Source: Thiohalobacter sp. IOR34
Lineage (GTDB): Bacteria; Pseudomonadota; Gammaproteobacteria; Thiohalobacterales; Thiohalobacteraceae
Reading direction: 5' to 3'
DNA length: 64,000 nucleotides
Assembly: GCF_030406045.1 (NCBI RefSeq)
Contig: NZ_CP128988.1
Location: 310,001 to 374,000, forward strand
Shown: in pieces, positions 8,331 through 13,626 of the stretch
Numbering within the stretch: the stretch's first letter is position 1
Layout of the letters: every line of letters begins with the position of its first letter
Notes under the pieces: generated by a model
Seen by the model: the letters and a program-made list of their open reading frames with translations, nothing else
What the model was told of the DNA's origin: nothing
Databases searched by the model: none
Position numbers and translations under genes: made by a program

Positions 8331-8456
8331 AGCTCCCAGCTCCCAGCTCCCAGCTCCCAGCTCCCAGCTCCCAGCTCCCAGCTCCCGGCTTCTAACTTCT
8401 AACTTCTAACTTCTAGCTTCTAGCTTCTAGCTTCTAGCTTCTAGCTTCTAGCTTCT
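8331..8456 (+). repeat. Tandem array of 18 heptamers (AGCTCCC / AACTTCT / AGCTTCT)
   Basis: Exactly 126 bases in strict 7-base phase: eight AGCTCCC, one GGCTTCT, three AACTTCT and six AGCTTCT. The stop codon of rsmE (TAG, minus strand, 8455-8457) is formed by the last unit and its junction. Units change in blocks, as expected from slippage. The reverse-complement array at 8184-8218 lies on the other side of the REP hairpin. Confidence 0.95.
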
Positions 8457-9189
8457 AACCAAGATCCCCATAGCGTTGCTGCAGCACGGCGATCGCCGTC
8501 AGCGCCGCGGTCTCGGTGCGCAGTACCCGTGGGCCAAGCCGCAGGCCGGTGAAGCCGGCCTGCCTGGCCGCTTGCCGTTCTCCCTCCTCCAGGCCCCCTT
8601 CCGGGCCGATCAACAGGCAGAAGGCGGATTCCGCCTTGCCCAGCTGGGCGAGCCCCCCTTCGGCCAGCGGATCGAGCAGCAGGCCGCGGGCGGCGCGGTC
8701 GCGCCGCTCCAGTGCGGTGGCGAGGTCCACCACCTCGGAGAGTTCAGGGATCCGGTTGCGGCCGCATTGTTCGCAGGCATGCAGGATCACCCCCTGCCAG
8801 TGCTGCCAGCGCTTGCGGCGGCGTTCCGCGTCCAGCCGCACCGTGGTTCGTGCGCAGGCGATGGGGACGATGCGCTGCACGCCCAGCTCCACGGCCTTCT
8901 GGATGGTGAGGTCCATGCGTTCGCCGCGCGAGACGCCCTGCAGCAGGGTGATGGCCAGGGGGGATTCCCGCTCCTCGTCGTGCCACTCGCCGATCTCGGC
9001 CAGCACCGCCCGCCGCGAGACCGCGTCGAGTCTGGCCTGCCACTCACCCCCCTGGCCGTTGAACAGCCGGATCTCGGCGCCGGGCTTCAGGCGCAGCACG
9101 GTGGCGACATGGCGCCGCGCCCGTTCGTCCAGCTCGATGCGGCGGCCCTGGGCCAGCGGTCCGGGCTGGTAGATGCGGGGGATGCGCAT
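8455..9189 (-). CDS. rsmE: RsmE, 16S rRNA m3U1498 methyltransferase
   Basis: 244 residues, normal for RsmE, a SPOUT-class enzyme that methylates U1498 of 16S rRNA. The N-terminal PUA-like part contains RRHVATVLRLKPG and LFNGQGGEW. The C-terminal knotted domain has QKAVELGVQRIVPI, CEQCGRN, LLIGPEGGLEEGE and LGPRVLRTETA. It starts 9 bases after the metF stop and is the last gene of the metK-ahcY-metF-rsmE run. Its stop codon falls in the heptamer repeat, so the last residues (GDLG) may be shaped by the repeat boundary. Confidence 0.95.
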   Translation of the reverse strand: MRIPRIYQPGPLAQGRRIELDERARRHVATVLRLKPGAEIRLFNGQGGEWQARLDAVSRRAVLAEIGEWHDEERESPLAITLLQGVSRGERMDLTIQKAVELGVQRIVPIACARTTVRLDAERRRKRWQHWQGVILHACEQCGRNRIPELSEVVDLATALERRDRAARGLLLDPLAEGGLAQLGKAESAFCLLIGPEGGLEEGERQAARQAGFTGLRLGPRVLRTETAALTAIAVLQQRYGDLG

Positions 9190-10166: not shown

Positions 10167-11579
<1,413 letters not shown>

Positions 11580-11632
11580 GTTCATCTCTCCTGATATAGC
11601 AAAAGATGAGCGCCGTTGTTTGGTTTCGCTGT

Positions 11633-11680
11633 CTCCCCGAGCCTGACGGGTTGCCCCGCTGCAGCGCCCCTCGGGGGGCA
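11633..11680 (-). ncRNA. SAH riboswitch upstream of ahcY
   Basis: Read on the minus strand, the segment has CCCCCCGAGGGGCGCTGCAG, a GC-rich middle, and CAGGCTCGGGG. This matches the SAH riboswitch core (CCGAGG-GCGCUGC ... CAGGCUCGG). CCCCGAG pairs with CTCGGGG to close P1. It ends about 47 bases before the ahcY Shine-Dalgarno site, the place where these elements occur. In this class SAH binding raises expression of ahcY. The match is by eye; a covariance search would settle exact ends. Confidence 0.88.
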
Positions 11681-11770: not shown

Positions 11771-12937
<1,167 letters not shown>

Positions 12938-12956
12938 GCTGGTCGATGCCTCATAA

Positions 12957-12990
12957 CAAAAAACCCGCCGGCCGGAAGCTCAAGCGGGTT
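12957..12990 (-). terminator. Attenuator (intrinsic terminator) in the metK leader
   Basis: On the minus strand AACCCGC and GCGGGTT form a stem around a 15-base loop, followed by TTTTTTG. It ends about 20 bases before the metK ATG and lies downstream of the SAM-II-like aptamer, so it is placed to act as the expression platform. Confidence 0.85.
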
Positions 12991-13009
12991 CTGGAATTCT
13001 TGTTGCCAT

Positions 13010-13064
13010 CCTCGCTTTAGCCGGATTTCTATAGCGCCCGCAATCTGAATTCAAATCGGCGCTG
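13010..13064 (-). ncRNA. SAM-II-like riboswitch upstream of metK
   Basis: The minus-strand RNA matches the known SAM-II aptamer in order and spacing. P1 arm AGCGCC (13063-13058) is followed by GAUUUGA, then AUUGC, then the closing arm GGCGCU (13038-13033), then GAAAU and GCUAAA, the pseudoknot-forming 3' segment. P1 is a perfect 6-bp stem. The aptamer starts about 3 bases after the predicted transcription start and is followed by an intrinsic terminator and metK. SAM-II is best known from alphaproteobacteria. The call is by eye against the published aptamer pattern. Confidence 0.82.
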
Positions 13065-13073
13065 TGGGCCGGA

Positions 13074-13103
13074 AGTTTAGGCCACCTTTCTTGTTGTTGT
13101 CAA
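13074..13103 (-). promoter_or_regulatory. Sigma-70 promoter of metK operon
   Basis: Minus strand: perfect -35 TTGACA at 13103-13098, an 18-base spacer, and -10 TAAACT at 13079-13074 (4 of 6). The start point would be near 13067, right at the 5' end of the SAM-II-like aptamer. The outer 34-bp inverted repeat of the neighbouring element ends 2 bases upstream of the -35. Confidence 0.7.
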
Positions 13104-13105
13104 AG

Positions 13106-13374
13106 ATACTAAGACAAACGATAACAAAGCCTCATTCAGAGCTTGCCAGGCGCCCCGGATCAAGGCGTGCTCCGCAGGGAATGGCCCGCCCTTGCCAAGG
13201 GGCACAACGCAGAGCCGGGGCGCCTGGCAAGCTCCCTGCGGGCGGGCCTCTGGACGGCCATCCGCAACGTTGCAATGGCTTGACAGGGAATCACCCTGCC
13301 GGCGCCATTGCGCCTTGCGGGCTGATCGTCCAGAGACCCGCTGAATGAGGCTTTGTTATCGTTTGTCTTAGTAT
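13106..13374. mobile_element. 269-bp MITE-like element with 34-bp perfect terminal inverted repeats
   Basis: The left end ATACTAAGACAAACGATAAC and following bases (13106-13139) are the exact inverse of 13341-13374. Inside are two further inverted pairs: GAGCTTGCCAGGCGCCCCGG against its inverse near 13216-13235, and CCTCTGGACG against CGTCCAGAGA. No open reading frame for a transposase fits. The outer TTGTTATCGTTTGT motif recurs alone at 21888-21901 after fba. It ends next to the metK promoter. Confidence 0.85.
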
Positions 13375-13626
13375 AGCCCGGATATTGCACCAAGGATTCG
13401 ATTCTCAGGGCGGAGCTGGCAAAGCAGCTTGGTCGATCACCCGCAGAAGCATAGCCGTAGCTATGGTTCAAGGGGGATCGGCCAGGATGCGCAGCCAGAT
13501 GCGTTCTGAGATCGAATAGGCACAAAGTGTACCCCGCCACGAGAGCCTATTTGCGAGCCTCCTGGCCTTGTATGCCAGCCTGCACTCCGATCATAGGGGC
13601 CGCCTTGGTGCAATATCCGGGGTAGC
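13375..13626. mobile_element. GATATTGCACC-type MITE, copy 1 (about 251 bp)
   Basis: Ends AGCCCGGATATTGCACCAAG and CTTGGTGCAATATCCGG are inverse. The left interior (GATTCGATTCTCAGGGCG ... AGCATAGCCGTAGCTATGG ... TCAAGGGGGATCGG) is shared with the full copy at 36490-36740 and partly with 57154-57436. There is no coding capacity. It abuts the 269-bp element on its left. Confidence 0.85.

Follow-up and report, generated by a model that had tools for sequence, protein, structure and literature searches.

The 64,000-nucleotide (nt) stretch of the Thiohalobacter sp. IOR34 genome analyzed here (contig NZ_CP128988.1, positions 310,001 to 374,000; hereafter the window) carries, ahead of metK (the gene for methionine adenosyltransferase), an element that sequence comparison identifies as a true SAM-II riboswitch followed by a transcription terminator. 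The riboswitch very probably switches metK off by terminating transcription. This mechanism is based on membership of the element in the SAM-II class by sequence and structure, covariation of its P1 and outer P2 helices, the conserved position of the promoter, and the conserved complementarity between terminator and antiterminator in related leaders; from these features we infer that S-adenosylmethionine (SAM) binds, where transcription starts, that it terminates, and in which direction metK is controlled. Since metK makes SAM, one would expect it to be controlled through its leader by SAM feedback. The element is ordinary for its class; its target, its poorly annotated subtype and its prevalence are somewhat new.

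The SAM-II element and the metK cluster

All coordinates are positions within the window, and the element and the metK cluster lie on its minus strand. From 13103 to 12937 the order is a promoter-like site, 11 nt, the SAM-II aptamer, a spacer, a GC-rich hairpin with six U, and metK, with the aptamer about 70-130 nt upstream of the gene. The parts are as follows.

13074-13103, minus strand: sigma-70-like promoter; -35 box TTGACA (13103-13098), 18 nt, -10 box TAAACT (13079-13074), 10 of 12 matches
13008-13065, minus strand: SAM-II aptamer, gammaproteobacterial form, delimited by the relatives' model R1 (below); the match to Rfam family RF00521 spans 13000-13072
13058-13063, minus strand: P1 5' strand AGCGCC, pairing with GGCGCU (13038-13033), from sequence and covariation
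13051-13057, minus strand: GAUUUGA, read from the sequence; putative third strand of the ligand pocket, by analogy with SAM-II and SAM-V structures
13040-13044, minus strand: AUUGC block, read from the sequence
13040-13049, minus strand: P2 5' strand UUCAGAUUGC; outer UUC with GAG (13013-13011), inner GC with GC (13021-13020)
13033-13038, minus strand: P1 3' strand GGCGCU, from sequence and P1 covariation
13011-13022, minus strand: P2 3' strand GGCUAAAGCGAG, which contains GCUAAA (13021-13016), presumed to bind the ligand, and the GAG of outer P2, and is proposed to double as the 5' strand of the antiterminator
12978-12986, minus strand: CGCUUGAGC, within the terminator 5' arm, and proposed antiterminator 3' strand; matches GCUAAAGCG (13021-13013) as its complement in 8 of 9 positions, the ninth being an A.G mismatch
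12958-12992, minus strand: predicted intrinsic terminator, a hairpin of -16.0 kcal/mol by folding, then U6 (12963-12958)
11771-12937, minus strand: metK, methionine adenosyltransferase, 388 amino acids (aa); TIGR01034, 608 bits

The sequence-only reading had named the P1 arms and the GAUUUGA, AUUGC and GCUAAA blocks, all of which are exact in the sequence, on a strand (minus) that it had left unstated. The metK gene that it gave as the target, starting at 12937 on the minus strand, is confirmed by the protein family match, and places the element in the leader of a methionine/SAM gene.

Membership in the SAM-II class

The Rfam SAM-II search that had been suggested as a check returned a match, although one below the gathering score of the family. 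RF00521 (SAM_alpha, SAM-II) matches 13000-13072 (minus strand) with 27.9 bits against a gathering score of 36 bits (E 3.8e-4 in a search of the 801 bases 12600-13400, E 3.3e-4 over the whole genome), and is the top and only relevant family among the seven matches at E <= 10 in the 801-base segment. The other weak matches there, including a microRNA family, lie mostly within a palindromic repeat and were taken as chance. The assignment to SAM-II is borne out by comparison with relatives. Model R1 was built from an alignment of 69 gammaproteobacterial relatives with at most 90% mutual similarity, drawn from the GTDB family of the window and 369 genomes of its class, excluding the genome of the window itself. 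With the window thus held out, R1 scores 13008-13065 (minus strand) at 71.2 bits (E 2.7e-18), and the next-best match in the window reaches 9.1 bits. Several members of R1 score above the RF00521 cut-off. Members were required to contain GATTTG, T(T/C)GC and GCTAA-like blocks, with the P1 sequence, the UCAG block and the spacing left free; the conservation of the blocks is therefore partly built in, because the relatives were picked by Rfam and the three-block motif filter.

P1 has six pairs in the window; in the R1 alignment its pairs form in 100% of cells, with double-sided changes in three of five pairs. The inner GC/GC of P2 is invariant, and the outer pairs covary (UA, UG, CG and others); in the window the outer helix has three pairs, one of them U.G. 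Over both helices 92.9% of the cells are paired, five of ten pairs show double changes, and the covariation score is reached by none of 500 shuffles. Sliding the partner strand by 1-3 columns lowers the paired cells to 33-56%. The pocket nucleotides GAUUU, UUGC and GCUAAA are all present in the window element, and the equivalents of the SAM-II pocket nucleotides contact SAM in the crystal structure described for SAM-V, the core of which matches SAM-II (PMC6061858).

We examined 148 loci, of which 139 have the motif at the expected place and, with five set aside as poor fits, 134 were retained. Eleven of the 14 left-out loci match R1 at E <= 0.01 (two of these weakly, L125 with 36.7 bits and L158 with 19.2 bits), and L214, L228 and L231 do not. 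The P1 and P2 pseudoknot and the GAUUU/UUGC/GCUAAA pocket are common to the alphaproteobacterial SAM-II riboswitches, such as those of Sinorhizobium metZ and Agrobacterium metA, and published descriptions also give these a promoter just 5' of P1, a downstream terminator and a predicted role as off-switches of methionine/SAM genes. The gammaproteobacterial form differs in several respects. Its P1 is nearly fixed as GCGCC/GGGCGC, and an outer P2 of at least five pairs in any register is present in 16 of 134 gammaproteobacterial elements, but in all 22 distinct alphaproteobacterial elements, which were the best-scoring places and hence biased toward the Rfam consensus. RF00521 scores are 25-48 bits in gammaproteobacteria, as compared with up to 88 in a sample of the phylum. 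The target here is metK rather than metZ or metA.

A short outer helix similar to that of the window element occurs in the metX SAM-II from the Sargasso Sea metagenome, which presumably shares its pocket blocks as well. According to Huang and Lilley (PMC6061858), most SAM-II switches are transcriptional and have a longer outer helix, and the metX example, with its short helix and known crystal structure, is translational. The metX element has a two-pair outer helix, whereas in the gammaproteobacterial form, the window element included, a short outer helix is combined with a transcription terminator. The window element is a clean test case for whether SAM-II elements with a short outer P2 can control transcription.

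Promoter-like site, terminator and proposed antiterminator

A transcription start at the aptamer had been predicted, and a promoter-like site does adjoin it: a site with 10 of 12 matches, where shuffled sequences have a mean of 0.2 sites. Among the relatives, 89 of 134 have such a site (at least 9 of 12 matches) ending 1-14 nt upstream of P1, as opposed to 0.7% of upstream control frames. P1 thus lies near the 5' end of the transcript, and for the window we infer a start at about 13067. The intrinsic terminator expected after the aptamer was likewise found, as the hairpin and six U listed above. A strict terminator scan did not list it; we take this to be because its rules admit only short, simple loops. 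A U-run preceded by a hairpin of -8 kcal/mol or better is found downstream of 99 of the 134 aptamers.

The terminator 5' arm appears to have an alternative partner in the GCUAAA segment. We folded nascent RNAs cut just before the terminator 3' arm and compared the pairing probability of GCUAAA and the 5' arm with that obtained with a shuffled arm. In the 99 leaders the mean probability is 0.63 vs 0.14 with shuffled arms, and it exceeds 0.5 in 65 leaders vs none; the corresponding values for the window are 0.76 and 0.23. The nascent antiterminator is centred on GCUAAA in gammaproteobacteria (mean 0.63; 0.45 for the next nine bases), whereas in the 16 alphaproteobacterial leaders with a terminator, out of 22, its centre is the nine-base stretch that follows GCUAAA (0.64; 0.30 for GCUAAA). 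Uninterrupted complementarity in 111 leaders of the group also exceeds that of shuffles (mean 7.7 vs 5.3 pairs). In some metK relatives (e.g. L182) the terminator 3' arm repeats the CUAAAGCG of the aptamer, which gives one arm a choice of two partners.

Proposed mechanism and alternatives

Transcription would start a few nt before P1. At low SAM the pseudoknot would be unfolded and its 3' strand, GGCUAAAGCGAGG, would pair with the terminator 5' arm CGCUUGAGC, and with this antiterminator formed the polymerase would read through into metK. At high SAM the ligand would bind to GAUUU, UUGC and GCUAAA within the closed P1/P2 pseudoknot. GCUAAA locked in the pseudoknot would no longer compete for the terminator arm, the terminator hairpin would form, and metK would not be transcribed. 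The transcriptional readout, singled out in the sequence-only reading as deserving attention, is supported by the comparison of leaders, and in the account of PMC6061858 it is the usual kind for SAM-II.

Several results weigh against this mechanism or its application to the window. The score under the gathering threshold leaves the element missing from a gathering-threshold Rfam scan; the gathering cut-off is a curation threshold and no structural feature, and of the 126 gammaproteobacterial genomes that have a match, 96 likewise stay below it. The window terminator is only moderately more stable than shuffled sequences (z -1.93, with 12 of 200 shuffles equally or more stable). Measured by uninterrupted pairs, the window antiterminator is not above chance (five pairs, shuffle fraction 0.77) because the A.G mismatch interrupts it. 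Equilibrium folding of the finished window leader shows no switch, the terminator probability being 0.89 both free and with GCUAAA blocked, and in only 19 of the 99 leaders does the block raise the terminator probability by more than 0.5. We rejected folding of the finished leader as a proof of switching, as the terminator prevails whether or not GCUAAA is blocked; the lack of a switch at equilibrium implies that the mechanism depends on the order of folding during transcription. Finally, 12 metK leaders have a terminator, and in three of these (L103, L116 and L142) the antiterminator probability is at most 0.14.

The equal terminator probabilities could also mean that the aptamer acts mainly on translation or mRNA stability and that the hairpin attenuates constitutively, unaffected by SAM. 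Three metK loci of family f54 (L154, L211 and L224) lack a terminator, and a terminator after the Sinorhizobium metA SAM-II is described as not predicted to be switched (PMC9373788), both of which fit this alternative. However, the aptamer ends about 70 nt before the metK start with the terminator in between, and the GCUAAA/terminator-arm complementarity characterizes the group. We consider a mainly translational or stability readout improbable, though deserving more weight than the other alternatives. That the element belongs to the SAM-V or SAM/SAH type (SAH, S-adenosylhomocysteine) is very improbable. SAM-V (RF01826) is described with the same pseudoknot core and a short outer helix, and the SAM/SAH riboswitch of Rhodobacterales controls metK, as the element here would (PMC4239095), and its aptamers are reported to have similar affinities for SAM and SAH. 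Neither family, the SAM/SAH riboswitch being a separate one in Rfam, is among the seven matches on 12600-13400. SAM-V differs further in its P3 hairpin and translational readout (PMC6061858): no stem is seen here between P1 and the GCUAAA of the P2 3' strand, and the readout appears transcriptional. A degenerate or chance match without regulatory function is hardly credible. The low Rfam score would fit it, as would two further RF00521 matches in the genome (E 0.011 and E 0.052), rejected since they lie inside protein-coding genes; against it stand the score with the held-out model, the promoter, terminator and metK in register, and the recurrence of the element upstream of metK in 15 genomes from six families. 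Control of metK by termination at a SAM-II riboswitch remains our preferred reading.

Distribution and targets in gammaproteobacteria

An RF00521 match at E <= 0.002 is found in 126 of the 369 genomes of the class, above the cut-off in only 30, and in none of 14 control genomes. The sequence-only reading was correct in assigning a gammaproteobacterial host, but its view of this placement as unusual does not hold, given these counts and reports in print since 2005-2007. In the phylum sample, matches reach E <= 0.001 in 84 of 398 genomes; the high scores come from genomes outside the class of the window, which we take to be alphaproteobacteria. The genes downstream of the 134 gammaproteobacterial elements are of the metZ/metY type in 98 cases (representatives were confirmed as O-succinylhomoserine and O-acetylhomoserine sulfhydrylases), metK in 15, metF in three, metN in two and others in 16 (one metX), placing at least 119 elements before genes of methionine/SAM metabolism. 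This suggests that a large share of gammaproteobacterial methionine/SAM genes carry SAM-II switches missed by default Rfam thresholds. The 15 metK cases are spread over six GTDB families. Among the nearest 80 named MetK loci the element is present in only two (L020, a gammaproteobacterial metagenome-assembled genome, and L025, one from Thiotrichales), so it is not general at metK even among the closest named MetK relatives.

Gammaproteobacterial, transcriptional and tandem SAM-II riboswitches have all been published previously. Corbino 2005 (PMC1273637) describes SAM-II outside alphaproteobacteria, with Coxiella in the alignment, promoters just before P1 and terminators; Barrick and Breaker 2007 (PMC2258182) note sporadic, possibly transferred gammaproteobacterial instances; and a 2009 survey of Pelagibacter RNAs (PMC2704228) gives SAM-II in Alpha-, Beta- and Gammaproteobacteria. 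A transcriptional metZ SAM-II is predicted in Sinorhizobium by Scheuer 2022 (PMC9373788), and a 2022 survey of tandem riboswitches (PMC9481103) counts 44 tandem SAM-II, some combining terminator and ribosome-site control. The comparison of about 200 proteobacterial genomes by Leyn et al. (PMC4239095) reports SAM_alpha only in Rhizobiales and Rhodobacterales, and lists the protein regulators MetJ, SahR and SamR for gammaproteobacterial metK. We found no published SAM-II upstream of metK, also among papers on SAM and SAH riboswitches with metK and ahcY, in a search that left subscription papers and supplements outside.

Proposed SAM and SAH sensors at the metK-ahcY locus

The metK gene of the window is followed by further genes of the SAM cycle and a second riboswitch.

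11601-11678, minus strand: SAH riboswitch RF01057 between metK and ahcY; 63.5 bits, above the gathering score of 37
10167-11585, minus strand: ahcY, adenosylhomocysteinase, 472 aa; TIGR00936, 634 bits
9199-10350, minus strand: open reading frame (ORF) containing metF, methylenetetrahydrofolate reductase, at residues 113-381; TIGR00676, 328.7 bits; the true start is probably an internal ATG

SAH riboswitches act as on-switches. Of the 15 metK genomes, 10 (families f1, f44, f81, f103 and f132) have one on the same contig and in the same orientation, about 1.3 kb downstream; in two more, with fragmented assemblies, it is on a different contig. The three f54 metK genomes, whose leaders have no predicted switchable terminator, gave no SAH riboswitch match. 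In the regulons presented by Leyn et al. (PMC4239095), SAH riboswitches control ahcY and metF, not metK. With metK, the SAH element and ahcY side by side, this neighbourhood lends itself to studying how two RNA sensors of opposite effect work within a single locus. Taking the observations jointly, we see about an even chance that three things hold together: a distinct, widespread and mostly unannotated gammaproteobacterial SAM-II subtype, with near-fixed P1, a short bistable outer P2 and GCUAAA as the antiterminator; a two-sensor SAM-cycle locus in at least five families, in which SAM would turn metK off and SAH turn ahcY on, the SAM/SAH ratio being read by two RNAs in one cluster; and a tandem, two-mechanism version possibly governing non-methionine operons, including those of MoxR-type ATPases, in one case close to a second and divergent SAM synthetase.

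Tandem elements

Tandem SAM-II elements occur elsewhere in the genome of the window and in other genomes. In the former (G000:C1:47875-48075; L002 and L242) the first copy has a terminator, and the second is followed by a hairpin that seems to mask the ribosome site; behind them lie a 47-aa ORF, apparently with a one-base break in its frame, and the genes of an unknown 221-aa protein and of a metallophosphatase. PADLOC models gave no convincing match to the proteins behind tandem elements. Others precede a MoxR-type AAA ATPase, identified by domain scan for L248 (G339) and by the look of the sequence only for L249/L199 (G128) and L253 (G002). At L248 the ATPase is followed by a DUF2201 putative metallopeptidase and an ORF in which the three domains of SAM synthetase are all present. 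That SAM would control a MoxR-type operon looks unusual. One genome (G255) has five tandem SAM-II (L243-L247) before small unknown genes, with an HD_4 (SpoT-like) protein near L246. In the family of the window, L254 (G007) has a tandem instead of a single SAM-II before a MetK-like ORF.

Flanking sequences

At 8455-9189 (minus strand), 3' of metF, lies an ORF that we take, by the look of its sequence, to resemble an RsmE-type rRNA methyltransferase. COG1385 is listed in SAH-riboswitch operons of Moraxellaceae by Leyn et al. (PMC4239095). On the other side, upstream of metK, a 269-bp element with perfect 34-nt inverted ends (13106-13374) is separated from the -35 box of the riboswitch promoter by 2 bp. 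It is present in 21 genomic copies with 98-100% identity across nearly the whole query, looks like a miniature transposable element and may change metK expression. A second palindromic element, with 22-nt inverted ends (95%), adjoins it at 13374-13624.
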